Source of the DNA: a virus | Virus record (IMG/VR): IMGVR_UViG_3300024348_000080 | Location: 1 to 46,013 of that record | Length of the DNA: 46,013 nt | Strand: one strand, 5' to 3' | Shown here: piece by piece, positions 2,009 to 28,594 of the stretch | Position numbering within the stretch: position 1 is the first letter of the stretch | How the letters are laid out: every line of letters starts with the position of its first letter | The notes under the pieces: model-generated | What the model saw: the letters and a program-made list of their open reading frames with translations, nothing else | The model's database searches: none | Told to the model about the DNA's origin: nothing | Made by a program: the position numbers and the translations under genes

Positions 2009-2033
2009 GTTATTAACCTTCTATGTTAATAAC
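2009..2033 (+). promoter_or_regulatory. Leader hairpin before the 771-aa gene
   Basis: GTTATTAAC (2009-2017) and GTTAATAAC (2025-2033) form a perfect 9-bp inverted repeat with a 7-base loop, ending 15 bases before the ATG at 2049 and downstream of the promoter. No U tract follows, so it is not a terminator. It could be a 5' stabilising hairpin or a dyad operator. Confidence 0.45.
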
Positions 2034-2048
2034 ATAATTAATTAAAAC

Positions 2049-4364: not shown

Positions 4365-4367
4365 ACC

Positions 4368-6089
4368 ATGCCAATCTCAGCACAACATACCAAATTTGTT
4401 TACCCAGATTACATCTCTCCTTTACCAGCAGAAGACTTAATTAAGTTTGCTGAAAAGAAACAACAGATGTATGATGAGGGTGTATCTAAAGTACAACAAA
4501 GTTTAGATAGTTATAACAACCTTAGAGGTTCTATCCTTACAGATGTAGAGAAAGAATACTTTGATAAGTCTATGGGTAACCTAGTTAAGTCTATAAGTAA
4601 TAGTGCAGGATTAGACTTCTCTAACAAAGCAAACGTACAAGCAGTTCTTAGTGTAGGTAAACCCTTAGAGAGAGATCAGTACATTACTACGGCTATCTCT
4701 AATGGAAAAGAAGTATCTCGTAGACAAGATCAGTTGTCTAAGATGAAGCCAGGAGAACGTAGTGTAGTCAATGATCATTTCTATATGAAGGATGTTCAAG
4801 ACTACATGAAGAGTGGTAAGCTAGGTCAAAAGATTGGCTACGGAAAAGAATACACTCCTTATGTAGATCTTTCTAAAGATTGGATGGAGTTTATGAAAAC
4901 TCAAAAGCCTAATCAGGATGAGTCTTTTAATATGAAATCTGCTATGGGACCTGCTTACATTGAGAAGGTAACTGTAGAAGGATATAACACTACAGACCTA
5001 GCTAACAAGTTTAAGTCTTTTATTGCTACTGATCCTAATAAGTTACGTCAGTTTCAAATGGATGCTGGCTATAGTTTAGAACAAGTAGGAACAGAAAGTG
5101 CTCACCAAGGTTACGTAGAAGATATGCAAGCTAAGGCTGTTACAGCTGCAGAGAACGCTAAAATGTTTAAAGCAGAGTCAGACAGACTTCAAAAAGCTTA
5201 TAACACTACAGGTTCAGCTACAGTTAAAGCGCAGCTAGAACAGACTAAGCAAAAAGCTACTTACTACGAACAATCTAGATTATTGGCTGAACAAAAAGCT
5301 GCTACTCCTATTGAAGACTTTGACTTAGGAGAGTACATGGAAATATATCAAGATAAGTTTGCTACTAATATGGGTAACATGTATGCTTCTCAAAAAGTAA
5401 GTAGAGATCTTATTACTAACCAATACTGGAAAGAGGCTAACGAAGATGCTAGGCAGATGCGTAAGATTAACGCAGATAGAAAGACTGCAATCGACATGGC
5501 TAACTTAAATCAAAAAGTAGGATACCAAGTTGATACCTCTGCTGTTAAACCTGTACTTCAAAACTTTGATAAAATTGCAGCAGGTCTTGCTATCATATCT
5601 CAAGAAGCTAGTAAGGATGGTAATGCAGGAGCAACTGAAAATCTTAACGAAGCAGTAAACAACTTAAGAAGGGCACAGAAAGCTACAGGAGAACAACAGT
5701 TGTTCTTTATCGAACAGGCATTAGCTAAACTTCCTAAGAGAGGAATCAATGCTAAATACCAACAAGCTATTACTTCTCTTCTTACAGGTAGTGAGGGATT
5801 AGACTATGAGTCTACTAATAGAAAACTTAGAGAAGATTTAGGAAGAATCAGAGCAGGAATAAATCAAAATATGTCTGGAGCTAATTCAAGTCTTCCTGTA
5901 AGTGTTGCAGGAGCATTTAGCGAAACAGTAGGAGGTATACAATCTTTTGACTTCTTAAGAAACTCTGCTAACTTAGGCAATTTCTACATTGGAGTTCCTG
6001 ATACCAGTATTACTACTTCTGATGACGGTACTGGAATTATAAAAACAAGTACTACAACCAAGTATAGCGGGGATATAGACAAGAAGTAA
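4368..6089 (+). CDS. Helical virion/cargo protein (573 aa)
   Basis: A 573-aa product, almost entirely predicted helix, rich in Lys, Gln and Ala. It begins MPISAQHTKFVYPDYISPLPAEDLIKFAEKKQ. A long coiled region at about 240-330 (EDMQAKAVTAAENAKMFKAESDRLQKAY...) and another at about 395-500 are visible. The C-terminus is Thr/Ser-rich (TSTTTKYSGDIDKK). No enzymatic motif or membrane segment is seen. It starts 3 bp after the 771-aa gene and lies just upstream of the RNA polymerase giant. In crAss-like phages this slot holds internal cargo or tail proteins, so I infer a virion-packaged role. Confidence 0.55.
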   Translation: MPISAQHTKFVYPDYISPLPAEDLIKFAEKKQQMYDEGVSKVQQSLDSYNNLRGSILTDVEKEYFDKSMGNLVKSISNSAGLDFSNKANVQAVLSVGKPLERDQYITTAISNGKEVSRRQDQLSKMKPGERSVVNDHFYMKDVQDYMKSGKLGQKIGYGKEYTPYVDLSKDWMEFMKTQKPNQDESFNMKSAMGPAYIEKVTVEGYNTTDLANKFKSFIATDPNKLRQFQMDAGYSLEQVGTESAHQGYVEDMQAKAVTAAENAKMFKAESDRLQKAYNTTGSATVKAQLEQTKQKATYYEQSRLLAEQKAATPIEDFDLGEYMEIYQDKFATNMGNMYASQKVSRDLITNQYWKEANEDARQMRKINADRKTAIDMANLNQKVGYQVDTSAVKPVLQNFDKIAAGLAIISQEASKDGNAGATENLNEAVNNLRRAQKATGEQQLFFIEQALAKLPKRGINAKYQQAITSLLTGSEGLDYESTNRKLREDLGRIRAGINQNMSGANSSLPVSVAGAFSETVGGIQSFDFLRNSANLGNFYIGVPDTSITTSDDGTGIIKTSTTTKYSGDIDKK

Positions 6090-15100: not shown

Positions 15101-18100
15101 TTTAAGTATGTATTCTCATAGAGATGCTTTTCATGCTCACGCAGATCAAGTAGGAATAAAAGTAAACGCTAATAGAGCTGCAGTAGATCAAATCTCTTAT
15201 CTTGTTTTAGAGGATGAGCCTATTAAATCGGCTACAGCAAAAGCAAGTAAGTTCTATGGTAAGTACAAAGATGCTTACACAAAGGATCTTAAGTCAGAAA
15301 AACAAAATGCTGCAGCTTTCTGTACATTAGATTTTTACCGTAAGTTCTTTGCTTTGTCTACAGGTCTTACTCTTCCGATGAGGCAGGAGTTTGATCGCCA
15401 AGATAAAATTTATAAAAAGTATTTAGAGTTACAAAGAGCAGACGAGTTCAACAGAGAGCAGATTACTAAAGAATTAGAAGCAGAGCTAAACAAAGGACCC
15501 TTCTATAAGTTTACTATTAAGAAACTTCAGTATGCAGGTCATAACAAGATAGAAAGTGGAGAGTCAGTTCCTGTAGGTCATAAGTATTCTATGAAGCCTA
15601 TTCTTCCTTCTGAGATTATAGCTGATCCTAAACTTGCTTCTATTCTTCAAAAACTTCATGCCTCTTCTGCAGAATATGCAGTATTTAAATCAGGTACTAA
15701 GTTGTCTGAGACAGTTGAGCCTGTAAAGTTGTTTAACTCTAAAGGAGAAGTACAAGATCAAGCAGTACCAGTAGGTTTGATTGATCTTAAGAATATCAAA
15801 GAACAAGTACTGATTGAGAATAAAGAAGACTTTAACAACATCTTCAGTACTCAGTTCCGTAAACTTGTATATAAAGATATAACTACTCCTGAAGGAGAAG
15901 CGTTGTATGAGTCTTACAAGTCTATTATTAAAAATCTTACTGGCTTTGATAAGCTTAACTTCTTAGAACAGTTAGATGATAAAGAAAAACTTGTAGAGTT
16001 TTTGATTCGTGAAATCTCTAAGAAGAATGCAGCAGAGTCTACTAAGGATCTTTTTAAATTAAAAGGTGATGGTACTTTAACTCACAGTCTTGATAGTATG
16101 ATTGACCGTACTATTATGGAGAGTGCTGTTGTATCTAGTGTTAAGAACCAGATTATTAAGCAAAAACTTCCTGGTGCACAAAGAGTACAGTATCCTGTAT
16201 CTTTGATTAGACCTTCAAGGCAGTTAAGATTCTACGATATAGTAGATGGTAAAGTAACTAAGGCTGAAGTCATAGTATCTTTCTCAAAAGGATACTACTC
16301 TTTACTTAGTCTTCTGTCACCTGTAGACAAACAACCTATTGGTCAGCTAGACAACGAAGGTAAGGTAATAAATCCTCATACTGCACTTACTCGTTTAAAT
16401 GAAGCACTTGCTAATCCTAAGTTTAGAAGTCGTTACTCTAATCAACTTACTATGGAAGCTATTCGTATTCCTGGAGAAACATATCACTCTATGGAGAACT
16501 TTGAGATTGTAGAGTTCTTACCTGAAGAAAGCGGAGAGATTATTCTAGTTCCTGATGAACTCGTAATTAAGTCTGGTGGTGATTTTGATATTGATAAGTT
16601 GTTCTGCTACGATGCTGTGTTGAATGCAGACGGAAGTTTTGTATACGGTCCTGAAATTAATCCAGAACAAGCTTTTGAATTAAAGAAAAGTCTTATAAAC
16701 AAACTACAAGAGAATAAAGAATTGTTTAGAGAGTTCTATCAAGAAAAACAGGATCTTATTCAAGACTTACAAGATATTCTTGTTAAGCGTGGTATCTCTG
16801 CAGACACTAAAGTAGCTGATTTATATATAGAACTTATTTCTTATAAGTATGTAAACGAACAAGAACTTGTAGATGAAGGATCAATTACTGAAACAGATCA
16901 AGAAAAACTTAGAAAGTGGGCAGCAGGAGAAATTACTCCTGAAAAGAAAGATCTCTCTAAAGAGATTAAAAATAGACTTAAAGTACTTAGAGCCACCTTA
17001 TCAGAGATATCGTCTGAGGGACTGTCTCAGGAGCTTACACAGATCAATAACAAGCTTAGAGTAATTGCACAAGAAGGAAGAGATATTAAAAATGACTTAA
17101 AGAATCTTAGAGGTCGATTTACAAACAGACTACTTCTTAATATCTCTAATCGTTTATCTCAACCTGAAATCTTTGAATCCTTAATCGCACCTAACGATAT
17201 TGCTACTATTAAAGAAGCAGTAAACCGATTTGGTACTGCTTCAAAAGTTACTACAGCTTCTCTTACAAATCTTGTTAGCCCTCTTTACCAGTTATATGTA
17301 TTCTCTTTGAATACTTATAAGACTTCTTTGGGTACTGATGCTAAGAATAACGTATTCCATGCACTACTCCAAAGAACTACTTTCTACAGAGAGGATGAAA
17401 AAGGTAACAGAAAATATCTTTTAGATGCAAATAGAACTATAGATGGATTCTTAAACTTCAGTGGTGTATACAATGTAGATGGCGGTAAAATATCTAACAT
17501 ATCAGGGGAGATGATTAGCGCTCACGTAGATATTGAAAAGAACGATGGTATAGCTCAGATTGGACTTAACAACGTAGTCACTCCTGTAGTTAACTATGCT
17601 AACATGGCAGGTACTAGACTCTTTGATATGGTGAAGTTAGTTAACTTAACTGACGGTTATGTTAACCCTAAAACAGGAGTTAAGAGAACTTCATCTATTA
17701 TAAAATACTCTAGAAAAAAATCTATAGACGAAGTTTTAGAGACTGCGGCTAATAATGCACCTGAAGGTAGTGTAGTTAGGGATTTGATTGAAACATCTAA
17801 AGACAAGTACGGAATGATTAGTCGTAACAAGTTTATTAACAATGTGTTTAATCAAATGTTAAAAAATACTACAGCAGAAACTACTTTACAGTTAATGCTT
17901 ACAGTAGAAGATTCTGTACAGGATCTTAGAAGATTTGCACAGTTTCTTGAATTAGAAGATCAAACAAGAGATCTAGCTACGATTTCATTGGCTACAGACT
18001 ATGATACATTCTCTCCTCAAAACTTTGAATCGTTTAGATCTAACATCTTAAGCTTGGTTCCATATCTTAAAGAAGGAGGAGAAAAAGCAGGTATCTTTAA

Positions 18101-20105
18101 CAAACAAGGTTTAGAAGATATCATAAATAATTCAATTGTTGCTCCTTTCCAGGTGCAGCAAGATGTTCTGGATAAGTTTGTTGAAGTATTCCCTATCTCT
18201 GCTAATCCTAAGATTACAAATACTATTCTTAAAAAGTATGCAATAGCTCAAAAGATAAATAAAAAATTAGACTACGATAAGTTTTCTCGTACATTTAAAA
18301 ACGATTTACTTTATGCTTTGTACATTAACAATGTACCACAGGTAGTTCAGTTTGAGACTTACTTAGATAAGAGAAGTCCTGCAAACTTAGCAACTATGCT
18401 TACTAACCTTAAGAGTAGATTACTTAATAGAGGTATCTCTGCTGATAACATTATGTTTGATATCATGAGTGCAACTACAGATGTTGACTCTAAGTATATT
18501 AGGACAGGAGTGTTAGATACAGACTTAGACTATTCAGTTGATATGTATAAGGAAGAGTTTGAGAAAGGATTTAACTGGTCTCACTCTGAGCTAGATCCTA
18601 CAAATCCTGTAGACTCTGAACTTATTGGAGATATGCAAGCTTTCTTTAAAGCATTTGCTTACGCAGGTATTATGGGAAGTCAGTTGAACAAGAAGTTTGA
18701 TTCTTACTTGCCTTTGATTCCTGAATCTATTTATACTCTTCCTATGACTTCAATCATTGAAGGCTTTGCTAGAGATTTAAATACTACGGAATCTGCTACT
18801 CAACCATCTACTAGTGTTAAAGGATTCCAAGGATACCAAGGTGGTTTTGAAAACATAGGTAAAGGAACTCCACAAGGAGATGGTAAGGATAAAGCAATGA
18901 GACAAGTTGCTAATGTATTTATAGGAGAACTTTCTAAGAATGGTAAAGGCTCTACTTTGACTTCTGCTAAAGAAATAGCTCAAAAACAAGGAGAAGAACC
19001 TAATACTTCAGGAGCAAGATATCTAGATGGAGACAAGAATAAATATGTTAATGAGATACATTCGGCTTCTATTAAACTAAAAGGTCAATCTTTAGTTGCA
19101 ATGCTAGCAAGAAATGGAAAGCTTGCAGGACAAGTGTTGTCTGCAGAGACAAAAAGAAAAATTAAAGGACTATCCGAACAAGGAGCAACTTTTGTAGTAG
19201 GAGACATGCCTGGGGTAGATTCTCAATTTATAGATTACTTACAAGAAATAGGGGCTAAGTTTACTATTTATCATACAGGTTCTACATCTAGAATTCAAGT
19301 AAAACAACCTACTCAATCATCTACTAGTGTTGAAGTAATTCCTCTAAATGAATCACAAAGATTTACTAGAGAATCAGCTGAAAAAGATACAGAGTATATG
19401 TATTTATTTACAGATAATGCTGGTAGAACGTCAGGCTCAGGAGTTATTGATCCTAACAGTTGGTATGCTAAAAAATATGGTGCAGATAAAAAATATGCAA
19501 GTAAAACACAAGCTGTAGCAAGAGGTCTTAAAAATGTTTATCCTATTACTACAATGGTAGATGATAAGAGAACTCAATGGACAGATGACCAATTTAATGA
19601 ATACAAGAAAATTATTGATGATGAAATAGAAACTATTAAACAGGCATCTAAGAAGTATAATGGTATTAAGTTTGGTGCAGAAATGCCTTTTGGTAAAGGT
19701 GCTATTTCTAATATGAAAGACAGTGCTCCTAAAATATGGAATTATCTTAATACAAAACTTGCTGAAATAGGTATTGATAATACGGGAGATATACCTGTAT
19801 CTACTCAACCATCTACTAGTATCGAAGAAAGTTTCTTTAAAGACTTTATAATTAGATTTAATGAAAACCATCCAGAGTTCCGTAATCTAGAAGTTCCTAA
19901 AACTATGACGTACTACAAAGACTATCTTCTGTCTAGAGAGAACGTTGTAGCTCAGTATGAAGCATCTATACAAAGTATTACTAAAACTTCTGATGCTGAA
20001 TCTCAACAAATGACTTTAGAGTTACCAGTAGATAATAGCTTTGGATTGAAAGATTCTTTTGCTAGCCTACGTGAGATTGATAACAACTTACGTAAAAACT
20101 GTTGA
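6150..20105 (+). CDS. Giant virion RNA polymerase polyprotein (crAss-like, DFDID motif), 4651 aa
   Basis: Seen in order: a helical N-terminus; a Gly/Ala-rich hydrophobic segment (about 450-520, ending GVVTATTFPRF) that may contact membrane; Glu-rich helical regions; a zincin-like motif YHEAWHEF with first His at 2096 and a downstream ERLADDFRAY that could give the third ligand; then the RNA polymerase region with RIPGETYHSMENFEIVEFLP leading to VIKSGGDFDIDKLF, catalytic Asp at 3478, 3480 and 3482. The DFDxD form is that of YonO and crAss-like virion RNA polymerases, which are single-chain relatives of cellular RNAP. Residues about 4224-4550 hold a SLOG-like and a TDN..RTSG domain between QPSTS-type repeats. 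Known biology: in Cellulophaga phage phi14:2 the homologue is packaged and transcribes early genes. This protein is far longer than that roughly 2200-aa homologue. Cleavage after synthesis is possible but not shown. Confidence 0.88.
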   Translation: MPQDPIIALLQSQGLDPFTKSKPLSGLESATNLTRAAEVSGAAFQPFESQLAIGKGVQSILEADVQAANANVSTALAMGNAKDLGFTLPQIADIDLNTKNELKDSADILNRVLREGTIEESQAALSELRDKYNRVANSSLGSKGKDTLRKSYGELVDRVNQINTSKLAKSQADAYFAENSLEDREKMLANPNANQRLSLNIKSKQSRNADILNGLADFESHKVGSRLYNEEDLATFKSTYVKTDDDLYAGMEMQYNYAMKGAVDEKVANYQKQISDIDAQIKQSMNQDQKNSLALQKANINKELTYSKNLSNKLKPYTLEDNYLKQFYPEQYTRKKEREKQEVYRNEMWAEGDQGSVGETLYRSGQQIKSNFLKQVAGLAYLGGANELGYRIKSGAEYAAPPTYFVGKDLNKNNKIDDAEITRDIHGDRVTMSQVSWTDKNGNKTWNLWASVEQVLPIATDVATTILLSKGVGAIGRGAGLTYGRIGAAAGLSEAGTATFIKSVAPRISTMGVVTATTFPRFYAEERSNFKDGNTAFNVALMRAGVEGLTETIVPDVNMFSGKIAYGALDGAFAKLGKLDPASLSRLTTQRDLLLGLLPKGALSPTKAALLMAPAAIRRTLSGATQESVEELGSLVGNYFVDKYASSQNFEVEETNQLTGDAFLDTFVEGFIPSLFISGATNLASKGAMKQERLGQARWNIANNPEKYKQLVANKVQAGKLTKEEGLKQTAAVDNLSKRLDSMTDMKNIKNLTNLLDDKELQFQYFNNSMFQEDLLNVDTTQLSPEQLTEYQDSLAKTSKEILTTKKLSDKYTGLEETDKREIISKLFNSQAKAAISPDTRMTSLLGIAEQTRQSLLTVPVADERYQFVNEEYKKFQDQVDANIVARVTNFKTTLENNPEQLTALELAMAKETYMPALERMEAIDAGFSLANSPIAPQQGPKTFDESVPELVQSIQAELSTRQILTTDDFQTEIPKNLRNPETKSMQEQQLAVSELSENELATGELEEGAHDHLTDNQKFILAIELDAHKTEKAENPNTLTDLENDIISNRKNLYSLSTRGLSAENTRARIIEMNKAAMEIAPSTPEVNNFSPNPVVTDTSRTPEPIVNVPGQLDEVDREIYTQYSNYLAEFNQQLADYDPSADETRTMIAEFNKSLFDGLLTLDSLNAVRSALLAIYPQNILAVEAMYEAAKQGNINLDTIELSPKKRERLAAHLENLIGEAQSISTSTDTRADIERRRQEELDKTNAQIERVEKRGDSFIRTKIEVYTALSGNETLDEIRIITFKDGSRIFTKTDVKTGQLILDEKIKKENTTTNEKFIEEWVGNLDNSLKKIAEDNNPNKTVIDKINAKYDAELTALEQPIPTEVLEEAPEVIEDEETIQSDNYDSAQGSDKTQSTDPLKKFKGLELQLISVTKENVALNDPAVQLAYNIMDSYSESKRLGKAVNMDVRIQSMMGIYEFVLPAGSVERLNELKQLKSLSEEEKAELRKLLSVNNLSIHNEGILLFLENNPSKIGTGVGSVFIDSDNNLLKFTSKGKPSTNKNAYVFVPAIKNTGIPEEQAIRQRVSKGEILKSSITGIVSGFDKPTSLTKAVGEKIYVHTGPAFTIKGAEKDFTVKPGVVYLQNENARYQYTGVNIPTNGNDIQILVNAFNEGTLPDTIDKSIREDAALFLNYLNRQINSTKVGKENTLKIRFFKAANLFLSTTNDNKLVVKYQVKGKDGKKYLKPSKNQKEDLEKIGQLSYKLVDARFLEDDKPYTALVVDAKGKISTKLFNSYSDFIKSPEFGANYEREENRTFSFSPELVSLNAPSVAVDDIDTTPNAPISDIPVAPKQLDLLMDQPRLTSEQLSEVEARATRQREIEQGNALDEEQLYREYLQEKEAFRTLDLPLEGMALEGNRISRDSFVRFADKANLQGREGKAIIFAYIGKRGEGVGVDEVARIGSGISDKEVTAQNIIDFILRYPGGIGGPTSKSTTTYFGANNPDINPRYANIKSTAKVQEAPRRLSRIAILNAQRGGEAPTSEDPYLFREKSLSNSITARQNALAKAWVASNPIFKNTPFIFDETISHPEAYAVWSKAGIFLYEGANYAEAYHEAWHEFSQLYLTPEQKEALYAEARAIYGNLPFVQLEERLADDFRAYALSGGVTMPESFKKATESKSIFKQIWDFITNLFSNKKTVDHYFSRLYKGNLNEFKRKESNQYFKQLYSGKYTFNDDQGVSHALSYVDSKKYLDDLDSLYVSTANTMSKDKGFTFVNILANPKEANLVYSMMAKQLYSEYDELLEMYEEEKNREYIPRINAIADILENFEATQRFHKQNSFLFEDKVRKELLNNQVIDLESVNSEFAAYEASVNEMSQKQLASQALISALRTLPKYENGVKLFHPVFGTALLSDFSANWNILQRRLSGVNSYSELFSRIESIAEVYPQFTQFLSYLPTPEENLVLTSDLNFKNEFYRIFSMPYIEGYTTDIKRNENGEITDVRIFQAQSLDSQNIKRSYDSAFSLNPSEFSLVNSETGTAYLNTPKYFKTFPGIPAVPIDEEDFEDYNNSLYRMLTPLGFNLSPNSIELFLKEDPTVQAGRVTLIYNKLKALSESQAYIATPLASISSAHIVEDKGTKRKIDGENSSVSNIIQYEVEANPQYVNDMRYNAVQKQIWSVNQHTLMTRVLGVLNDELTYPTLENVYDELPHLDPRNNPNTIGSFVLSYLFKANGERYSDTIQGQEVYRKVELGNLLGIKDKGEGEKTIDSNQAKKHYADVVGLVKSGVEELNRLSGKATTRGLILDLRLRKFLGFSNSTNQVDEFLSEGPVQVPKSLFVSKILPLIKSEIEVTRKNSDKYEIKPLDKDGTPKLAYFQDIFSSEQRKALYSAYTTGDSTKSLEDVFDQMPEKDEILKKFREHIANNVSLSEDILGTIYPVDKVDLFKYHFFSFISRIEQHKLFFNHPYYYKNVKDIEKRLSMWNAFGSYPVIDQQNMDYLLSDRSGLSMYSHRDAFHAHADQVGIKVNANRAAVDQISYLVLEDEPIKSATAKASKFYGKYKDAYTKDLKSEKQNAAAFCTLDFYRKFFALSTGLTLPMRQEFDRQDKIYKKYLELQRADEFNREQITKELEAELNKGPFYKFTIKKLQYAGHNKIESGESVPVGHKYSMKPILPSEIIADPKLASILQKLHASSAEYAVFKSGTKLSETVEPVKLFNSKGEVQDQAVPVGLIDLKNIKEQVLIENKEDFNNIFSTQFRKLVYKDITTPEGEALYESYKSIIKNLTGFDKLNFLEQLDDKEKLVEFLIREISKKNAAESTKDLFKLKGDGTLTHSLDSMIDRTIMESAVVSSVKNQIIKQKLPGAQRVQYPVSLIRPSRQLRFYDIVDGKVTKAEVIVSFSKGYYSLLSLLSPVDKQPIGQLDNEGKVINPHTALTRLNEALANPKFRSRYSNQLTMEAIRIPGETYHSMENFEIVEFLPEESGEIILVPDELVIKSGGDFDIDKLFCYDAVLNADGSFVYGPEINPEQAFELKKSLINKLQENKELFREFYQEKQDLIQDLQDILVKRGISADTKVADLYIELISYKYVNEQELVDEGSITETDQEKLRKWAAGEITPEKKDLSKEIKNRLKVLRATLSEISSEGLSQELTQINNKLRVIAQEGRDIKNDLKNLRGRFTNRLLLNISNRLSQPEIFESLIAPNDIATIKEAVNRFGTASKVTTASLTNLVSPLYQLYVFSLNTYKTSLGTDAKNNVFHALLQRTTFYREDEKGNRKYLLDANRTIDGFLNFSGVYNVDGGKISNISGEMISAHVDIEKNDGIAQIGLNNVVTPVVNYANMAGTRLFDMVKLVNLTDGYVNPKTGVKRTSSIIKYSRKKSIDEVLETAANNAPEGSVVRDLIETSKDKYGMISRNKFINNVFNQMLKNTTAETTLQLMLTVEDSVQDLRRFAQFLELEDQTRDLATISLATDYDTFSPQNFESFRSNILSLVPYLKEGGEKAGIFNKQGLEDIINNSIVAPFQVQQDVLDKFVEVFPISANPKITNTILKKYAIAQKINKKLDYDKFSRTFKNDLLYALYINNVPQVVQFETYLDKRSPANLATMLTNLKSRLLNRGISADNIMFDIMSATTDVDSKYIRTGVLDTDLDYSVDMYKEEFEKGFNWSHSELDPTNPVDSELIGDMQAFFKAFAYAGIMGSQLNKKFDSYLPLIPESIYTLPMTSIIEGFARDLNTTESATQPSTSVKGFQGYQGGFENIGKGTPQGDGKDKAMRQVANVFIGELSKNGKGSTLTSAKEIAQKQGEEPNTSGARYLDGDKNKYVNEIHSASIKLKGQSLVAMLARNGKLAGQVLSAETKRKIKGLSEQGATFVVGDMPGVDSQFIDYLQEIGAKFTIYHTGSTSRIQVKQPTQSSTSVEVIPLNESQRFTRESAEKDTEYMYLFTDNAGRTSGSGVIDPNSWYAKKYGADKKYASKTQAVARGLKNVYPITTMVDDKRTQWTDDQFNEYKKIIDDEIETIKQASKKYNGIKFGAEMPFGKGAISNMKDSAPKIWNYLNTKLAEIGIDNTGDIPVSTQPSTSIEESFFKDFIIRFNENHPEFRNLEVPKTMTYYKDYLLSRENVVAQYEASIQSITKTSDAESQQMTLELPVDNSFGLKDSFASLREIDNNLRKNC
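12405..12600 (+). other. Zincin-like metalloprotease motif inside the 4651-aa protein
   Basis: HEAWHE starts at residue 2096 (12435), within AEAYHEAWHEFSQLYLTPEQ. About 37 residues later comes QLEERLADDFRAYALSGG, whose Glu/Asp would supply the third zinc ligand, as in other HExxH..E..AD.F proteins of large phages. The motif and spacing are seen; protease activity is inferred. Confidence 0.65.
16440..16640 (+). other. RNA polymerase catalytic loop (DFDID) region
   Basis: GGDFDIDKLF lies at residues 3476-3485, codons 16575-16604. It follows a beta-rich stretch with RIPGETYHSMENFEIVEF and ILVPDELVIKSG, the usual run-in to the second double-psi barrel of DFDxD-type polymerases. All three Asp that should hold the catalytic Mg are present. 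Confidence 0.9.
18796..18818 (+). repeat. Linker direct repeat, copy 1
   Basis: Contains CTACTCAACCATCTACTAGT (18796-18815) followed by GTT, encoding the linker TQPSTSV. It is in frame, identical over 20 bases to copy 3, and differs from copy 2 at one base. Confidence 0.85.
18990..19300 (+). other. SLOG-like (DprA/YspA-type) domain in the 4651-aa protein
   Basis: Residues about 4285-4385 read GARYLDGDKNKYVNEIHSAS, LAGQVLSAETKRKIKGLSEQ, then ATFVVGDMPGVDSQFIDYLQ followed by EIGAKFTIYHTG. The pattern of hydrophobic strand, GDxxGVD, helix, then GA/strand is the Rossmann-like nucleotide-binding core of SLOG proteins (DprA, YspA/DUF2493, LOG, TIR-linked sensors). Those families bind nucleotides, NAD-derived molecules or DNA. 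The ligand here is unknown. Confidence 0.6.
19309..19331 (+). repeat. Linker direct repeat, copy 2
   Basis: Same 20-mer as copies 1 and 3 with a single C-to-T change (CAATCA in place of CAACCA), followed by GTT. It encodes TQSSTSV and lies 513 bp after copy 1 and 492 bp before copy 3. Confidence 0.85.
19374..19795 (+). other. TDN..RTSG domain in the 4651-aa protein
   Basis: Residues about 4410-4548 begin with YMYLFTDNAGRTSGSGVIDP, then WYAKKYGADKKYASKTQAVARGL, NVYPITTMVDDKRTQWTDDQ, and end with GIKFGAEMPFGKGAISNMKD and APKIWNYLNTKLAEIGIDNTG. I recognise this as a small stand-alone domain seen in other phages and bacteria. Its layout recalls macro-like or A1S_2505-type domains (F.FTDN/FGSN start, Gly-rich loop, YPI(P)TxxxD, xFxx.FGxGxI), but I cannot name it with certainty. 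Ligand binding is inferred only from that resemblance. Confidence 0.5.
19801..19823 (+). repeat. Linker direct repeat, copy 3
   Basis: CTACTCAACCATCTACTAGT, identical to copy 1 over 20 bases, then ATC. It encodes TQPSTSI at the end of the TDN..RTSG domain. The C-terminal tail of the protein (about 95 aa) follows. Confidence 0.85.
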
Positions 20106-20136
20106 TTAAATTTTAATTAAACTATATTTGTATTAA
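20102..20136 (+). promoter_or_regulatory. Promoter for the 2815-aa gene
   Basis: TATATTTG at 20123-20130 followed by TATTAA, with TTG at 20102-20104 (18 bp spacing, partly within the end of the upstream gene), matches the Bacteroidetes consensus. It fills the 41-bp gap between the two giants and shows that the second giant can be transcribed separately. Confidence 0.65.
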
Positions 20137-20146
20137 CCCATTAACT

Positions 20147-23100
20147 ATGTTTTGTCCTAACCTATCAGACCCTAATATAAAAGCTCAGTTTGAGTCACTT
20201 CAATCTATTGTCCCAGAATATGCTTATTATCTCTGGGATAAGTATCAAGGAGAAGTACCTGCTAAGTACTATAATCTAAGTAAACTATCTCCTAGCCTAG
20301 GTACATCTGTTGATACTGTTCAGAATGCTATTAAAAACAGTTTACCTGTTGAAGTTAGTAGTATCGTGAACGTAGTAGAAACTGTTCCCTTAGATGTATT
20401 AGGAAGAGAGGATCTATTCCTTTCTATGAAACAAATCTTAAATGAGAATGGTATTAGGGATGAAGTTTTAATTAACTGGGCTGGTAAAAACAAGGCAGCA
20501 ATTGGTAATATCAAAAAGTTTAAGTCTACAGTACAATTAGAAGGGGTAGTAGAAAGTATTTACAATAGTAAAAGTAAGCCAGAGAATCACATAGAACTTA
20601 AACTTAATCCTTTAGCGTTAGAGAGTTTTAACAAATGGGTAAAAGCTTTGGAAAAATACCCAATACCTTTTAGAGATTTAATGTTAACTCATGCTATTAA
20701 GTATTTAAATCCACAAAGAAGGTCTAAGTATGTTCTACAGTTAAGTGATGTAGCATTACAAAATGCTTATGGTATAGTTGTAAACAAACCCCATGAAGCA
20801 AATAGGATAGGTAAACTTTACGATCAAGAAGTATTAGCTACTCTATCAGATGCAGTTGAACATGAACCTTCTGCGAGTGGTAAAGGTTATTGGGTTCATA
20901 TTCCAAATACTCAGAAGAAAAATTTTGGATTTAACACTTACGAAGACTTTAAAAAAGATACAGAACGTCAAATTGCTTCTTTAGACTTTCGTATAAAAGA
21001 CTTATTAGAAAAAAGTAATCCAGAATATTACAGTAATTTACTTGCAGAATTAGAAGAATTAAAAAGTAAAAAACCTGTTTTTTATACACAAGAACCTAGT
21101 CTTAACAGAGAAGAAGCTAATAGTTATGGATTTGAAGAGTTTGAATACGTAAGAGTTGAAAGTAGTTATGGTAGAGGCGAGAATCCTTTTCAAGAATACT
21201 TAGGCTTGAACTACAAAGGATATTATATACATGGTTATAACACACAACAGGGTAGACCTGGTACAAAAGTTATTCCTATAACAAAAAAACAAGCAGAAGA
21301 GATTTGGAATAGACGTATTGTAGATTATCCTTTCGGGGTATACGAAGTTAAGGATTACCAAAAAATATATAGTTTACAACAACAAATTGAATGGAATAAT
21401 CCTGAAAGAAATCTAAAAGAATTACAAGAAGCAGAAGACGAAAAAAGTAAATTAAACCAAAAATTTAATTCTATTTCTCCTTCTGACTGGGACAGTGAAG
21501 AAGCAAGTCAGTATAGAACAAACGTAGATACTCTCAGAAAGTTATCTCCTGCTACTTGGTGTACTTCTGGTTCTATGACAGAACATTACGTAGAAAACTA
21601 CGATAATTATCTATTGATTGTAGATGGAGTTACTGTTGCGGGGATTGAAGCTGATCCACTATCTAAAATAGAAGATAAAGAAAGTCTTTTAAAGAGTCTT
21701 AATAGAATAAATACCGCTATTGAAAATGGAGTTGCAGACCCTGCTCAATATACGGATAAAGATAAAATTGAAAGAATTTTATCAGGAAATGCTTCTATTA
21801 CAAAAAGAAAAGTAAAAGAAGTCACCTCTCGTGCTAACAACGGGGTAGCTCCTATAAATCACTTAGACGATATAATAGCTTTTTTTGAGAAACATAACTT
21901 AGATTTAAATAATCGTTCTGTTAAACAAGCGCAACAATTAAAGTCTCAAGGAAAAGTAGATTCTGAATATCAAGAAGAGGATAGGGACTACTACGAAGGA
22001 CCTTACGATTATGAAGAACCCTTTGATTATGAAGGAGATGTATATTTGGAACGTCCAAATGAAGAAGATTATGCAATAGCTTTAGAAGAAGGTAGAAGAC
22101 GAGAGATTGCACGAGAATTAGTTTCTGTAGAAGATACTTTAGAGAATCTTCCTTTACTGGCAACTCCTGGAAGATATAATGTTTTTTCTTACATAAATCA
22201 AGCACTTAGAAATGATGAAAGAGTAGCAAGAGCTGCGGTTGGTCTTGATCCACATAATATAAATCATATAGCTAGTAATCGTACATTTTACGCAGAACTT
22301 GCAATTCAAGCTGTTAATGCAAATCCTGCTGTATGGGTATATTTACCTCAAGAAGGTAAGGATTTACCTGGTCTAGAATTAGTATACACAACATGGGCTG
22401 ATGCAAATTATCCAATTGATGACCTACCTTTTTCTAAAACTAATACTAATCAAATACAAGGATACTACGATGCTAAGACTGACAAAGTTGTAGTAGTAGC
22501 ATCTAATGTTTCTAAAGAAGAAGCTCCTAAGGTTGCCATTCATGAAGTAGCCCACAGAGGTATGATTAGAATGGCTAAAGACTTAAAAGGAACAAAAGAA
22601 CTTTATCAAGTATTGACTAACTCTGAGAGAGAGTTAATGAAGAAACTACCTGATTTATTAAAAAGAACTGGACATACAAATGTAGAAAACTTACTAAAAG
22701 ATTATGGATTTAATATAGAGTCAGAGGAAGGTAAAGCAAAACTTTTAATGGAGTTAGCTGCAAGATGGGCAGAGACTTTAGTAAATAAACCTAAGCCTTC
22801 TTGGTGGAAACAATTCTTAACAGGTATTCAGCAATGGGTAACTAAATTTACAGGTAAAACTTTAAATGAAGATGAAGTAAATGAGTTAGTTGGAGGATTT
22901 GTTAGATATGGTTCTCAGGTTAAACAAGACATGCCTTCTACCATGTTTAGTAGGAAGGATGCTAAGTTTGTATCTGATAGGTTTATTCGATTAGAAAGAC
23001 AATACGACTTTCTTAAGGAGTCTCAGATGGATTCTGAGTATTGGAACCTTCCTAGTATATCTGCCAAGAAACAATACCTAGCTAAGAAACAGTTTGATAC

Positions 23101-26100
23101 TGTTGTTAAATTAATAGAAGGTAGAGATTCTGTAGAAGTAATTAATAATAAGATTTACTTGTCTCCTACTAAAGCAGTTGAAGGAGGTAAAGTTCTTTAT
23201 GGCTATGCGTCAGGTTTAGCTGAGGATATAAATAAGATGTATCCGTTAGTAACAGACTCTTCTCCTGCTTATGTTAGACAAGAGGCTAATGGAAGAACTT
23301 ATGTAGAGTTTGACTTAACTGGTCGCTATGCAACCCTATTAGTAGAGGGAGTAGCATTCTTAGAAGAGGAAACTATGAGGGCAGAGATTGAACTAATGGA
23401 TATCCAAGATGCTATTCGTAAAGAAAAAGCAGCTATCATGGAGAAGTTAGAGTCTGCTAATGAAGTAGTCATTGACGGAGAAGTGTATGCTTACACAGGT
23501 TCAATGTTCCAAAAAGGATTTGCATTAACTCAAGCTTTAAAGGAACCAAAGATTAAAGATTATACTAAGTTACTTAACAAATTAGTTTCTAGATTCCCAG
23601 GAGTTACGTGGAAGTGGAACACTGATATTGTTGAGGCAGCAAAAGTAAACCTAGCTACAGGACAAATAGAAATTAATCCTACTCTTATACAAGAAGATAC
23701 TCCTTGGCATGAGTTTGGACACTTTGTAGTTAGAGGAATTAGAGAATCTAATCCTGAATTGTTTGAACAGCTTAAGAAAGAGATAGAGGCATTACACAAT
23801 GAAGCTCCAACCTCCTCTTCTTATTCTCGTGTAGAAGCTTCTTATCCTGAGTATGTAGGAACAGATTCATTCTGGGAAGAAGCAATTGTTACAGAATTAG
23901 GAAGACAGGCTGCTAGAAAAGAAAACAGAAGTTTGTTTGATAAAGTACTTGATTGGTTTAAATCTTTAATAAACGACTTGGGAGGAAAGAATACACAACA
24001 ATTGGCTATGTCTAATCTAGTAGATTCTTTAGTAGATCCTAGTGTTACTTTTGACACAGAGTTTAACGAAGAAGCAGTAAGCGACTATATGTTCCAAAGG
24101 ATTGTTCCTGCAGAAGAAGTCGATGCACTTACCAGTTATGTAAAGATTTCGCCTAATGATCCTTTTGTATTTAAAGATTACGCAGAGAAAGTACAAGTAA
24201 TTGCTAACGCTATCAGTGAGACTGAGTTCAAAAAGATTTTAGATACTAACAAATACTTAGGATTAGGTAGTGAGTCTCTGCAAAGAGCATTAGCTGCTAT
24301 CAGAGAAGTTAAGAACATTGTAACCAAAGAAGATGTAGCTGCTTCTGTATTAGAACTTGCAGACTACTTACAGTATAATGCACTTTACTTGACAGGAGTA
24401 GTTCGTCACTTAAATAACATTATTGAAGATCCAAATATTCCCTCTGGTAAAAAACTAGGAGATTTGCATAGAGGTTACAAACAAGCTTTAGCTATTGAAA
24501 AGCATATCAAGAAGATAGAAGAGTTGTTTACTACTCGTGCTTTAGATGAGATGATGCGTAGTGAAGTTCAAAAAGATGCTTTTCTTAAGAATCTTTCTTG
24601 GATGCGTACAGCAATTGCTACTATTAAGAATGGTCACAACAATAAAATAATTGATCCTGTAATAGATGAACTTGCTGAAACTTTTAAAGGACAGTCTAAA
24701 GATATTGAAGCTTCTTTTGATAGAGACATAGATAAACTTAAGTCAAGAACACAGACAGATACTATTCTCAAAAGAATTAAAGAGTTAGAAAAAGAAAAAC
24801 AAGATAGCTTACTTACTCCTGAGAACATTAAAAAGTTCTTGGCAGATAGTAATTCTCCTTGGTACTTAGCTATTGACTCTGCAATGGCTACTAAGAACCC
24901 AGGAGTTCAATTAATTGCTAACTATATAAGAAGTATCAATAACGAGTTTCAGGAAAACTTAAAACCTATTGCTAGTGAGTGGCAGGATCTTATGGATGAC
25001 ATTGCTGCTAGTGAAGGAGGATTTGTAGGTTCTGCATTGAAAACTAAGAAATTCTTTGAACCATTTATTAGAGAGACAGTTCTATATGAAGTTATTGACG
25101 GAGAGTTAGTTAAAGATAAAAAGGTTCTTTCGCTTAACACAGAAGTTAAAACAGTTGAGTTAGGCAATAGAATTACTGAACTGAAACATGCAATTGATTT
25201 CGGAGCAACTGAGGAAATTAGAGAACAAGCAGAAGAAGATCTTAAGAAGTTTTACGAAGAGTATACAGAACGTCCATTCACAGACGATTATTACGAGATC
25301 CAGAAACTTCTTCCAGATGATATTAAATTTAAACGTAATCAAATTTATCAAGAACTTGCAGCAATCAGAGAAGAGTTTGGTACAGGTATCATTGAAGATG
25401 AGATTCTAGAACGCCTAAGAGATAAAGAACAAGAACTTTACGAGTTAGAAAGACTTTACACAGAGGATGGAACTCTTAAAGAGGGAAAACCTTTAGAAGA
25501 TGCATTAGCTATTCAGGCTTGGAAAGAAGGTAAGAGATCTGCTGATGTTGTAAGTTTTGTTCTTACTCCTGACAGTAAGTCTGTATTTGAGAGAATGCTT
25601 GTAGATAAGAAAGCACAGTTAGCTAAAGCTTTAGCATCAGCAAAGATTCCTCAACAAAGAGAAGATGCACATAAAGCTTATAATAACTGGGCAAGTATTT
25701 ATACAAGAACAGTATATACTCAAGAGTTTTATGATACAAGACAAGATATCTTAGACGAAATCCAAGAGTTACTTAGTGATAGAGGTTCGTTGAGTGATAA
25801 GTACTCTGAGTTATTTAATCTTTTGTTAGGTACAAGAGATACCAATGGTGTGTACAATCCTGTAAATGTTACAGACAAACAAGTACAGAAGGCAAAAGAA
25901 GTAGAAGAAGAGATTGAAGAGATTAAAGCCTTGCTTAAGCAGGATAGTCCGCTTAGTCTTCCTGTAAAAACAAGACTAGGACAACTCATAGAACAATTAC
26001 AAGCACTTCAGAGTAATGTAAACTCTGAATACTATACTAACGCTGTAGACAATCAATTAAAAACAATCAGAACTAAAGTATTTACAGAACATACTGATTG

Positions 26101-28594
26101 GGATGTAACTTCTGTTGAGCGTGAAACTAACATTAGATTTAAAAACTCTGACTGGTATAAGAACAATCACATTACTAAGTATAGATATAACCCTGAAACT
26201 AGATCAGTAGCAGCAGTAGAGGAGCCTATATTTATGTGGAGGGTTACTAGACCTAACGATCTTAAATACATTGAGACTGATGCTCCTTCTTCTTTGTGGT
26301 ATAAGTCTATAGTTAGTCCTAAATACAAAAACAATAACTATAAGCCAGGAGAAGTTACGTTTAAAGCAGTAACAGGAGGTATCTATCATAACTCTGGTTA
26401 TAACAATCTATCTAACAATCAGAAAGCTTTACTTGGTAGAATGAAACAACTTCACTCTCGTAGTCAAGAAGGTCTTTACCAAAAAGATAAATTAGGAGAT
26501 TTGATTCCTGGTATGAGAAAGACTAGGGGAGAGTTTGTAGACTTAGTTAAACTTAAGGCAAACACTATCAAGCAATTCTTTAAAGGAATTAAGAACTGGT
26601 TTACAGGTGATCGTGAGAATTTCTCTGACGAAGATGATATCTATGGAGACGCTTATCAAACAGATGCATTTGGTGACCCAGTAGTAAGAGAGTCTAGAAG
26701 ACTATTTAATCGTTATGCTCGTACTCTTCCTTTAGAGGAACAGTCTTACGATATTATGACTGCTATGGCTTCTTACGCTACTTCTTCTGAGAGATTTAAA
26801 GTAATGCGTAAGTATCAGTCTACAGTTCTGACTATGGAAGAAGTGTTTAACCGAGGTAAGTCTGAGTCTCTCTCTTCTAAGGTTATCAAAGATTTAGTAG
26901 ACAGAGAACTTTATGGTAAGGTACTTGAGGATAAAAATGATTCTAAACTTTTACGCCAAACTAATAGTATTATTAGTGGTGTTTCTAGTATAGCAGGATT
27001 TAAAACTCTTGGGTTCAACCTTTTGAGTTTACCACAGAACTGGATAAATGGTTATCTTAAGATTTTCTCGCAGCTTGGATTCTATCATATTACTGCAAAG
27101 GATATGGCAAAAGCGTTTGGAGATACTTCAGGAATTAGTAAAGAGTTTTACTTAAGCTATAATCAATTTGGAAATAAGAGCTATAGAGTATCTTTAGTAG
27201 ATTACTTTACAGGTACACAGTCTACGGCTAACCAAGCAAGTGAACTTAATAATAAAGGACTTGTTAAGTACGGTAAAGCATGGAAATCAGTTTCTACGCT
27301 TAGAGACTTTACAGAATTTGATATTTCTGCAGTAACAACCTATGCTTTCTTAAACAAGTACAGAGTACCCTTAAAAGGATCTACTACTACTATACCGCTT
27401 AAGGATGCATTTGAACAAGTAAACGGTGTTATCCAGCCTAAAAACAATGTAGACATAGATTTTGATTTTATTCAAAAAGTAAGGATGAATATTCAGTTGG
27501 CTAACGAAAGAGCTCAAGGTGTTTATTCTCCTGAAGCACAGCCTACTGCAATGAAAAATGCTTGGTTTAGGTCTCTTATGTTCTTGAAGAAATGGATTAT
27601 ACCAGATTTAAAAACTACTTGGGGAACAGACACTGTACACTATGGTGCAGGTATTCGTACTATAGGTTCGCATCAAGCTGCAATAAGGTTTATGAGAGAC
27701 ATTGTACTACTAGATAAAGGTAACTTTGTTAGAACGTGGTCAACTAGCTCAGAGGTACAACAGGCAGGCTTAAAACAGTTTGCAGTTTCTTTAGGTGCTT
27801 ATACAGTTCTTGCTAACTTAATTGTTCAAATGTCTCTTGCTATGGATTGCGAAGAAGATGGAGAGGCAGACTGGAAAGATTATGTTTGTCTTGGACTTAA
27901 GAGAACAACAAACGAAGCTGAAGGTGTATTTACTCTTTGGGGAATGAATGAAATGAAGTTTACTTATATTTCTGAACAAGCAAACGGTGTATCTATTTTT
28001 GAAAAGATTGGTTGGGCAGCTTTAGGTCCTTTTAGTGTATGGAGAAAATTCTGGACAGATGACGACTTATTTACTACAGAACCTTATTATAGATATAAAT
28101 CTAACTCTAACAAGGTAGATTGGGATAAAACACATCCTATGCAAGCAGGACAAAATGGATTAGCTGTTTTAGGTATGGAATTTTTAGGACTTAGAGGTTC
28201 GTTTATTGGGCCTAAGTCTGTAGAGTTTCAAAACAGAGCATTCAATGACTATGCTCCAAAGACTTATACTAAAGAGTTAAGAACTAGATATAAGAAAGAT
28301 CATGAAGGTCTTGAAATTATGCCTACTAGAACTCGCTTGGCTCAAGAAAAGAAATTCTATAAGAAACAACTTAAAGAAATCCAAGAAGAGATAAGAGGCT
28401 ATAAAGTAAAAGGAGAACCTGTACCTACTAATCTAGAGAATAAGTTAATTAAACTTAGAGACTCTTACAGAAGTAGAATAGAGAATATCAAAGAAGGAAA
28501 TATAGAAGAGGGAAGTTCTATTGCTTATCCTTTCATGGATGTACTTGGAGACAGAAGGGGGTTAGATATTACTCCTGACGCTGACGAGGAATAA
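20147..28594 (+). CDS. Giant virion protein with two zincin motifs (2815 aa)
   Basis: Begins MFCPNLSDPNIKAQFESLQS, a CPN-type opening I associate with the large RNAP-cluster proteins of Bacteroidetes phages. Residues about 245-760 are AT-rich and contain LSPATWCTSGS (W471-C472-T473) followed by YLLIVDGVTVAGIE, and a DDERVARAAVGLDPHN..FYAELAIQAV segment resembling DUF4116-like repeats. Then come HEVAH at residue 799 (AIHEVAHRGMIRM) and HEFGH at 1188 (DTPWHEFGHFVVRG), both preceded by strand-rich sequence typical of zincins. The rest is long helical coiled-coil sequence with a hydrophobic stretch AVSLGAYTVLANLIVQMSL near 2540, and a charged helical C-terminus. Gene order fits a second virion-packaged, injected protein acting with the RNA polymerase. 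Protease activity is inferred. Confidence 0.75.
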   Translation: MFCPNLSDPNIKAQFESLQSIVPEYAYYLWDKYQGEVPAKYYNLSKLSPSLGTSVDTVQNAIKNSLPVEVSSIVNVVETVPLDVLGREDLFLSMKQILNENGIRDEVLINWAGKNKAAIGNIKKFKSTVQLEGVVESIYNSKSKPENHIELKLNPLALESFNKWVKALEKYPIPFRDLMLTHAIKYLNPQRRSKYVLQLSDVALQNAYGIVVNKPHEANRIGKLYDQEVLATLSDAVEHEPSASGKGYWVHIPNTQKKNFGFNTYEDFKKDTERQIASLDFRIKDLLEKSNPEYYSNLLAELEELKSKKPVFYTQEPSLNREEANSYGFEEFEYVRVESSYGRGENPFQEYLGLNYKGYYIHGYNTQQGRPGTKVIPITKKQAEEIWNRRIVDYPFGVYEVKDYQKIYSLQQQIEWNNPERNLKELQEAEDEKSKLNQKFNSISPSDWDSEEASQYRTNVDTLRKLSPATWCTSGSMTEHYVENYDNYLLIVDGVTVAGIEADPLSKIEDKESLLKSLNRINTAIENGVADPAQYTDKDKIERILSGNASITKRKVKEVTSRANNGVAPINHLDDIIAFFEKHNLDLNNRSVKQAQQLKSQGKVDSEYQEEDRDYYEGPYDYEEPFDYEGDVYLERPNEEDYAIALEEGRRREIARELVSVEDTLENLPLLATPGRYNVFSYINQALRNDERVARAAVGLDPHNINHIASNRTFYAELAIQAVNANPAVWVYLPQEGKDLPGLELVYTTWADANYPIDDLPFSKTNTNQIQGYYDAKTDKVVVVASNVSKEEAPKVAIHEVAHRGMIRMAKDLKGTKELYQVLTNSERELMKKLPDLLKRTGHTNVENLLKDYGFNIESEEGKAKLLMELAARWAETLVNKPKPSWWKQFLTGIQQWVTKFTGKTLNEDEVNELVGGFVRYGSQVKQDMPSTMFSRKDAKFVSDRFIRLERQYDFLKESQMDSEYWNLPSISAKKQYLAKKQFDTVVKLIEGRDSVEVINNKIYLSPTKAVEGGKVLYGYASGLAEDINKMYPLVTDSSPAYVRQEANGRTYVEFDLTGRYATLLVEGVAFLEEETMRAEIELMDIQDAIRKEKAAIMEKLESANEVVIDGEVYAYTGSMFQKGFALTQALKEPKIKDYTKLLNKLVSRFPGVTWKWNTDIVEAAKVNLATGQIEINPTLIQEDTPWHEFGHFVVRGIRESNPELFEQLKKEIEALHNEAPTSSSYSRVEASYPEYVGTDSFWEEAIVTELGRQAARKENRSLFDKVLDWFKSLINDLGGKNTQQLAMSNLVDSLVDPSVTFDTEFNEEAVSDYMFQRIVPAEEVDALTSYVKISPNDPFVFKDYAEKVQVIANAISETEFKKILDTNKYLGLGSESLQRALAAIREVKNIVTKEDVAASVLELADYLQYNALYLTGVVRHLNNIIEDPNIPSGKKLGDLHRGYKQALAIEKHIKKIEELFTTRALDEMMRSEVQKDAFLKNLSWMRTAIATIKNGHNNKIIDPVIDELAETFKGQSKDIEASFDRDIDKLKSRTQTDTILKRIKELEKEKQDSLLTPENIKKFLADSNSPWYLAIDSAMATKNPGVQLIANYIRSINNEFQENLKPIASEWQDLMDDIAASEGGFVGSALKTKKFFEPFIRETVLYEVIDGELVKDKKVLSLNTEVKTVELGNRITELKHAIDFGATEEIREQAEEDLKKFYEEYTERPFTDDYYEIQKLLPDDIKFKRNQIYQELAAIREEFGTGIIEDEILERLRDKEQELYELERLYTEDGTLKEGKPLEDALAIQAWKEGKRSADVVSFVLTPDSKSVFERMLVDKKAQLAKALASAKIPQQREDAHKAYNNWASIYTRTVYTQEFYDTRQDILDEIQELLSDRGSLSDKYSELFNLLLGTRDTNGVYNPVNVTDKQVQKAKEVEEEIEEIKALLKQDSPLSLPVKTRLGQLIEQLQALQSNVNSEYYTNAVDNQLKTIRTKVFTEHTDWDVTSVERETNIRFKNSDWYKNNHITKYRYNPETRSVAAVEEPIFMWRVTRPNDLKYIETDAPSSLWYKSIVSPKYKNNNYKPGEVTFKAVTGGIYHNSGYNNLSNNQKALLGRMKQLHSRSQEGLYQKDKLGDLIPGMRKTRGEFVDLVKLKANTIKQFFKGIKNWFTGDRENFSDEDDIYGDAYQTDAFGDPVVRESRRLFNRYARTLPLEEQSYDIMTAMASYATSSERFKVMRKYQSTVLTMEEVFNRGKSESLSSKVIKDLVDRELYGKVLEDKNDSKLLRQTNSIISGVSSIAGFKTLGFNLLSLPQNWINGYLKIFSQLGFYHITAKDMAKAFGDTSGISKEFYLSYNQFGNKSYRVSLVDYFTGTQSTANQASELNNKGLVKYGKAWKSVSTLRDFTEFDISAVTTYAFLNKYRVPLKGSTTTIPLKDAFEQVNGVIQPKNNVDIDFDFIQKVRMNIQLANERAQGVYSPEAQPTAMKNAWFRSLMFLKKWIIPDLKTTWGTDTVHYGAGIRTIGSHQAAIRFMRDIVLLDKGNFVRTWSTSSEVQQAGLKQFAVSLGAYTVLANLIVQMSLAMDCEEDGEADWKDYVCLGLKRTTNEAEGVFTLWGMNEMKFTYISEQANGVSIFEKIGWAALGPFSVWRKFWTDDDLFTTEPYYRYKSNSNKVDWDKTHPMQAGQNGLAVLGMEFLGLRGSFIGPKSVEFQNRAFNDYAPKTYTKELRTRYKKDHEGLEIMPTRTRLAQEKKFYKKQLKEIQEEIRGYKVKGEPVPTNLENKLIKLRDSYRSRIENIKEGNIEEGSSIAYPFMDVLGDRRGLDITPDADEE
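20880..22480 (+). other. AT-rich WCT/DUF4116-like insertion region in the 2815-aa protein
   Basis: Codon use shifts here to more A/T-rich forms with many AAA/GAA runs and acidic tracts (EYQEEDRDYYEGPYDYEEPFDYEG). It encodes a segment with LSPATWCTSG and VDGVTVAGIE, a domain seen in phage and bacterial proteins as a WCT..Y..IVDG pattern, then a repeat-like stretch with VARAAVGLDPHN and AELAIQAVNANP. The borders are approximate and the function is unknown. Confidence 0.45.
22541..22555 (+). other. HEVAH zincin motif (first of two in the 2815-aa protein)
   Basis: H799-E-V-A-H803 sits in KVAIHEVAHRGMIRMAK after a strand-like KVVVVASNVS. About 80 residues on, KLLMELAARWAE could provide the third ligand. 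Motif seen; activity inferred. Confidence 0.6.
23708..23722 (+). other. HEFGH zincin motif (second of two in the 2815-aa protein)
   Basis: H1188-E-F-G-H1192 in QEDTPWHEFGHFVVRGIRE, with SFWEEAIVTELGRQAA about 60 residues downstream as a possible third-ligand helix. The preceding TGQIEINPTLIQ is the strand usually seen before the active helix. Confidence 0.65.

Follow-up and report, generated by a model that had tools for sequence, protein, structure and literature searches.

An exchangeable cassette with a WCT domain and a putative zincin in a giant crAss-like phage protein that is probably packaged in the virion

Residues ~245-778 of a 2815-aa phage protein, which a first-pass annotation had described as an AT-rich, inserted-looking region, most likely form the centre of an exchangeable cassette, made up of an N-domain, a WCT domain, DUF4116-like helices and a zincin, within a giant cargo protein encoded by a crAss-like phage. 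Judged from alignments with its relatives, the region is itself a patchwork, composed of a conserved WCT..IVDG core, two loop inserts and a fast-evolving acidic and DUF4116-like stretch. The window, by which we mean the whole stretch of DNA analysed, is a 46,013-bp virus contig whose long genes follow each other in the order 771 aa, 573 aa, 4651 aa and 2815 aa. The 2815-aa ORF (20147-28594; plus strand, as are all features described here) is intact and starts directly behind a virion RNA-polymerase-type gene, P0002 (6150..20105, 4651 aa), that carries a DFDID motif and ends on a Cys residue. Matches of P0002 in tblastn searches are weak and mostly to crAss-like and related phages (cr50_1, E 7e-12); the match to phi14:2 g066, annotated as 'catalytic RNA polymerase subunit', is also weak (E 1e-2). 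The DNA polymerase of the window is 38-48% identical to those of Lbo-JY46, cr108_1 and crAss001, the closest being from Leptolyngbya phage Lbo-JY46 and crAss-like phages. By these sequence relationships, a Crassvirales-type RNA polymerase and replication gene among them, the window is a contig of a crAss-like phage. No viruses are more abundant in the human gut than the crAss-like phages.

The arrangement of two mid-sized genes followed by giants resembles the layout of crAss001, in which gp45 and gp46 precede gp47/49/50 (PMC10172136), and RNA-polymerase-associated cargo has been detected by mass spectrometry in the virions of crAss001, the one phage for which such data are known (PMC10172136). 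The 2815-aa gene thus occupies the slot in which crassviruses encode packaged cargo, and its product is probably packaged in the virion. A search of 50,697 phage records, crAss001 included, gave no match to the cassette, so that packaging is here deduced from gene position; nor did tblastn with the C-terminal body of the protein detect significant similarity to named crassvirus cargo. Two further features of P0002 were noted: short TQ[PS]STS linkers repeat between domains in its C-terminal ~400 residues, as they do near the end of the RNA-polymerase-type protein encoded by gene 3-5918 of the related contig L130, and residues 4404-4534 resemble DUF7831 (E=1.3e-5, just under the cut-off).

Searches of GenBank phage records, plasmids, GTDB genomes and IMG/VR found relatives of the cassette only in IMG/VR contigs. 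Three of these (L001, L002 and L003) encode proteins ~84% identical to the window protein over its full length; the other relatives are strongly alike only in the first ~930 residues. The limits of the exchanged block emerge from two independent comparisons, L001/L003 and L003/L011, with which a third line of evidence, the standalone gene of L036, agrees. L001 and L003 are 98-100% identical over most of the ~800 bp leading up to the gene and differ once in its first 107 nt (99% identity over residues 1-30); by sliding identity, differences become dense from nt 108, and identity stays at 60-90% up to nt 2712 of the L001 gene, which corresponds to window residue ~931. Behind nt 2712 the two share 417 identical bases, and the remainder is about 97% identical (94-100% from residue ~951 on). 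L003 and L011 show the opposite pattern, with identity mostly at 86-100% (~95%) inside the block, apart from the insert borders, and dropping to about 40-70% (~50%) on either side of it; accordingly, differences at 4-fold sites amount to 0.05-0.15 inside the cassette vs 0.43-0.57 in the C-terminal part. L001, L002 and L003 are metagenome assemblies, for which chimeric assembly is possible on sequence alone, though the two comparisons share their breakpoints. These comparisons place the exchangeable cassette at residues ~36-931 (20252..22939), behind an N-terminal leader (residues 1-35, 20147..20251, MFCPNLSDP..., with Cys3) that stays with the phage during exchange, as the L001/L003 comparison and the early Cys residues of downstream giants indicate.

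In L036 the cassette is a separate 739-aa gene with the same domains and the same end point, located between the RNA polymerase gene and the next giant gene; it is also a separate gene in L019 and L020/L021. The body of the window protein (residues 932-2815, 22940..28591) is the homologue of that separate downstream gene, residues 961-2815 matching the next gene of L036, L019 and L020 by blastp (E 5e-16, 5e-20 and 6e-9, respectively), and in L045 the next giant gene directly follows the RNA polymerase gene, with no cassette between. On this sequence evidence, the cassette is exchanged as one block among crAss-like phages, as a separate gene in some and fused in others. An account without exchange, in which the region is an acidic linker that lacks structure, evolves fast and contains small conserved islands, would be in keeping with the rapid evolution of the acidic linker and DUF4116-like stretch; we regard it as extremely improbable, given recombination limits that are sharp and common to two comparisons, the occurrence of the cassette as a standalone gene and the confident prediction of a compact WCT fold. 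Several variants of the locus were observed besides. A small gene (162-165 aa, NYRIQQEE motif, no terminal Cys) lies between the RNA polymerase gene and the cassette gene in L018 (4140-4637) and L020 (3509-3997). Where L020 has a single 1684-aa gene, L021 has three ORFs: two, of 583 aa (sharing its start with the L020 cassette gene) and 628 aa, together at 967-4607, precede the 1485-aa cassette gene. In L130 (3-5918), a zincin with the C-terminal part of the cassette, lacking the N-domain, the WCT domain and the N-terminal strands of the zincin, is fused to the end of an RNA-polymerase-type protein. A GNAT domain follows the cassette in L019 (7040-7300), and its best phage match is the N-terminal part of a giant protein of Lbo-JY46 (L110, gene 12355-20601).

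All cassettes of sufficient length have the same domain order, from the N-domain through WCT, the acidic linker and the DUF4116-like stretch to the HEVAH zincin. The α-helical N-domain (residues 60-253, 20324..20905, ending in SASGKGYWVHIP) is conserved in all cassettes, as seen in alignments and in the AlphaFold model of an insert-free homologue. The WCT core follows in two halves, the first (residues 456-501, 21512..21649, NVDTLRKLSPATWCTSGSMTEHYVENYDNYLLIVDGVTVAGIE) near-invariant in all cassettes and the second (residues 555-600, 21809..21946, KVKEVTSRANNG...HLDDIIAFFEKHNLD) conserved; as the first-pass annotation had noticed, it contains a WCT motif, at residue 471, and an IVDG-type sequence, NYDNYLLIVDGVTVAGIE, at residues 484-501. 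Behind it lies a hypervariable, acidic and Tyr-rich linker (residues 609-660, 21971..22126), and the proposed difference in charge is real, the net charge being -28 across the 534 flagged residues, ~0 for the N-domain and +3 for the zincin.

The claim that the flagged stretch differs from its flanks in composition was correct in direction, but the shift is mild. GC is 0.326 vs 0.343 +/- 0.012 (9th percentile) and GC3 is 0.143 vs 0.203 +/- 0.037 (5th percentile), both relative to equal-length windows of the two giant genes; GAA:GAG is 49:7 vs 372:189 (p=0.002, uncorrected), and adaptation to the codon usage of the phage itself is normal (84th percentile). With values in the 5th-9th percentile and normal codon adaptation, composition by itself would prove nothing. 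Moreover, composition marks no single block, insert A being AT-rich (GC 0.300) and the WCT core ordinary. That an acquired module lies between the N-terminus and the first zincin was right as to modularity and wrong as to limits, the true unit (residues ~36-931) including both supposed flanks. Nor does presence or absence in relatives follow one block: the two inserts vary, and the WCT core is always there, invariably placed between N-domain and HEVAH zincin in all cassettes of sufficient length, and so is not itself an insert. The idea that residues ~245-778 are a single module of foreign origin that entered between an ancestral N-terminus and the zincin draws on the slight AT-richness, the GAA bias and the acidity, as well as on present/absent blocks that do occur within these residues. 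As one block it is refuted by the constant position and highest conservation of the WCT core, by the swapping of N-domain and zincin along with it and by synonymous divergence that is not raised in insert A or in the DUF4116-like stretch, and we give it very little credence.

The two inserts are loops within the WCT domain. Insert A (residues 254-455, 20906..21511), which separates GYWVHIP from the helix that precedes WCT, may be kept, missing or replaced in relatives: one type of ~190 aa is found in the window (205 aa), L001, L003, L013 and L022, a second of ~80 aa in L010/L020/L021 and further types in L005, L018 and L118, those of L010, L018 and L005 being unrelated to the insert of the window, and the slot holds only 17 aa in L011 and 12 aa in L019 and L036. 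As read from the sequence, the head of insert A has predicted-looking β-strands between helical or coiled stretches. Insert B (residues 502-554, 21650..21808) has 53 aa in the window, where it is akin only to the insert of L010, and is almost absent (11-13 aa) in L001/L003. Both inserts differ between L003 and L011, although their constant parts differ at just 5-15% of 4-fold sites, and insert states are interleaved on the tree of constant parts, which requires several changes. A relative of insert A (39% identity) lies near the end of the RNA-polymerase-type gene (2-4975) of L045, at 4001-4465, between coiled-coil-like flanks; from its presence in another giant protein we conclude that insert A is itself mobile between proteins. 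No family was found for the small insert heads in Pfam, and matches of insert A to PDB sequence profiles were at chance level.

Selection also divides the cassette. In the comparison of the window with L001, dN/dS is 0.06 for the N-domain, 0.03 and 0.08 for the two WCT halves and 0.12 for the zincin, vs 0.35 for insert A and 0.51 for the acidic linker; it reaches 0.75 over residues 651-765 of the DUF4116-like region and 1.02 over residues 695-755, with no value shown to exceed 1. dS is of similar size throughout (0.43-0.96, and 1.3 in the acidic linker). Thus, by these ratios, the WCT core and the zincin are under strong constraint, WCT being among the best-conserved parts, and in the DUF4116-like stretch and insert A the protein changes 5-10 times faster than in their neighbours. 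Fast protein divergence with ordinary synonymous divergence, in this comparison, argues for weak or diversifying selection and against a foreign origin of the fast parts. A diversity-generating retroelement was considered as the source of the DUF4116 variation and dismissed on inspection, as the changes extend beyond adenines.

An insert-free homologue of the WCT domain is modelled by AlphaFold as a compact fold (pLDDT 87.2, pTM 0.83) in which a strand and a helix lead to the WCT motif, followed by a helix, three strands and a helix. Foldseek against predicted viral proteins returned one unnamed phage protein with a TM score of 0.75, and PcfJ-like phage proteins, also predicted, superimpose with TM(query) of 0.59 and 0.55 at 3.9-4.9 Å. 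Sequence searches gave nothing consistent in Pfam and PHROGs, no Pfam model covering the WCT domain, and matches of the WCT domain and the zincin to PDB sequence profiles were at chance level; no relative of the WCT domain was found in GTDB genomes or among plasmids. The Pfam cut-off for PcfJ (PF14284) is reached neither by cassette family members nor in six relative contigs. A connection is nevertheless provided by a bridge family (L069, L104 and L105), found by a pattern search for WCT plus GDFH; L069 encodes a 3164-aa protein with a curated LPD38 domain. In hhalign, WCT scores 34.2 against the bridge family (best of 200 shuffles 24.2; 0/200 as good), and the bridge family scores 28.9 against PcfJ (best shuffle 20.0; 0/200 as good), for which phage EFDG1 served as the source of seeds. 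The direct comparison of WCT with PcfJ is weak (17.4, with 4/200 shuffles equal or better), and the controls (N-domain, zincin and DUF4116) score at most 15.4. The WCT domain thus appears, from models and profiles, to be near PcfJ in fold without being a member of the PcfJ family, the link running via a bridge family in LPD38 polyvalent proteins. It could instead be a degenerate GNAT acetyltransferase: in a PDB fold search with a longer model including WCT, which gave no match at E<=0.001, the best hits were GNATs (E ~0.07), several BFVD hits are GNATs, and genuine GNAT domains are fused close by in L019 and, with a weak match, in L020. However, superpositions on GNATs are poor (TM 0.3-0.45, mostly >7 Å) and those on PcfJ-like proteins better (0.55-0.59, 3.9-4.9 Å), no acetyl-CoA loop motif is seen, and the alignment of the bridge family with PcfJ covers most of the WCT domain, so that a GNAT origin seems unlikely. 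A limited literature search found no function for PcfJ. The WCT domain also has one invariant Cys, in an otherwise Cys-poor protein.

Downstream of the linker, the call of a DUF4116-like stretch (residues ~661-748, 22127..22390, helical and fast evolving) was correct, although in the window the match to PF13475 is below threshold (16.3 bits, cut-off 24.9); the orthologous stretch of L005 exceeds it (27.5 bits, E=2.3e-6). Residues 768-931 (22448..22939) form a putative zincin-like metallopeptidase domain, as judged from HEVAH (799-803), the conserved Glu869 and Glu876 and profile hits below threshold; HEVAH and the downstream Glu columns are invariant in the alignment, and DUF6782, a putative metallopeptidase, is weakly matched in 5/8 members. 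Zincins in polyvalent proteins have been proposed to process the polypeptide chain or to act on host proteins (PMC5512222).

Cysteine residues mark the termini of the giant proteins. In the window, the last codon of the RNA-polymerase-type gene (20100-20102) and the third codon of the next gene (20153-20155) encode Cys. At the junctions listed from crAss-like phages (including crAss001, phi14:2, the window, L132, L133 and L110), giants downstream of another giant begin with M and carry a Cys in position 3-5 (26/26), and giants upstream of another giant have a Cys within their last nine residues (26/26), vs 6/88 and 1/88, respectively, for other ORFs; the first member has no N-terminal Cys (0/8 chain starts) and the last no C-terminal one (0/13 chain ends). 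The p-values serve merely for orientation, since the list of junctions was drawn up by hand once the pattern had been noticed and related phages are not wholly independent. Two entries need qualification: cr108_1 conforms only on the assumption that its 2967-aa and 798-aa genes are parts of a single gene, and cr130_1, probably a recoded phage, has inner stops under code 11, so that only its ends were used. The clearest case is phi14:2, in which the only Cys of g067 (1797 residues) is its last residue, g066 (2180 residues) has two, at residue 3 and the penultimate position, and g065 (1421 residues) has one, at residue 3. In crAss001, gp47 has one Cys, third from the end, gp50 has N- and C-terminal Cys residues and gp49 one, N-terminal; the standalone cassette proteins of L036, L019 and L020 have Cys at both ends. 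A DNA-level signal is unlikely: TGT and TGC both occur, and the constraint therefore acts on the protein. A limited literature search found no mention of this pattern, which suggests that it is so far unreported. The pattern is directly visible at the termini; the covalent link is what we infer from it. Because crAss001 virions contain disulfides between tail proteins, disulfides between cargo termini are plausible, and it is a fairly balanced question, in our judgement, whether terminal Cys residues, probably through disulfides, couple the RNA-polymerase-associated cargo proteins of crassviruses head to tail, so that these are packaged as a single ordered chain, are threaded through the tail in that form and separate in the reducing cytoplasm of the host. 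Alternatively, the cysteines may bind metal or serve another role of the termini.

The 2815-aa protein is probably packaged and would be injected together with the virion RNA polymerase; the RNA-polymerase-associated giants of crAss001 virions must partly unfold to pass the tail (PMC10172136). The WCT/zincin cassette would join the chain as an extra link where it has its own gene (L036, L019, L020) or be fused into the last link, as in the window. Membership of the chain would explain the position of the 5' swap point immediately downstream of the Cys leader, the cassette being kept behind the leader because the leader would couple it to the preceding cargo protein. After delivery, the zincin may process the cargo chain or a host protein. 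More tentatively, the WCT domain and the DUF4116 helices may act as a recognition module, with exchangeable heads and a rapidly changing surface that would follow the variation of host targets; the conserved core, the exchangeable heads and the fast-changing helical surface would fit such a function, which we consider possible rather than probable.

The locus bears on how crAss-like phages inject megadaltons of protein through a narrow tail: one cargo protein appears to carry a plug-in cassette that is exchanged between phages with defined limits, an unnamed domain family (WCT) is added that seems linked to the PcfJ family, and a simple terminal-cysteine rule for cargo proteins is suggested that can be checked on the cultured phages crAss001 and phi14:2. 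Among known systems, the DarB/DdrB-type antirestriction polyproteins of phage P1 are likewise large packaged proteins with a zincin; a relation to DarB was set aside, as it yielded a non-significant profile hit (phrog_10089, E=0.48) and no shared antirestriction domain was found. The WCT domain shares with PcfJ (PF14284) the predicted fold and a motif register (Y..xxP, L, [HW]C, a β-hairpin and R..N), but has WC-T instead of H-C, carries loop inserts and has no member that reaches the Pfam model. The crAss001 cargo proteins gp47/gp49/gp50 (PMC10172136) are comparable in gene position beside the virion RNA polymerase, in giant size and in the terminal-cysteine pattern; in contrast, the WCT cassette occurs in none of the phage records searched, crAss001 included, and packaging is here read from the genes. 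The closest parallel in architecture is with the polyvalent proteins (Iyer et al. 2017, PMC5512222), which are also giant, multidomain and mosaic, contain a zincin and DUF4116/GNAT/LPD-type modules and have a neighbouring RNA polymerase gene; several unrelated effector-type domains are joined in one very long polypeptide here as well. Unlike in those proteins, the N-domain, WCT and the inserts are without a Pfam model, and the cassette moves as a block between close relatives.
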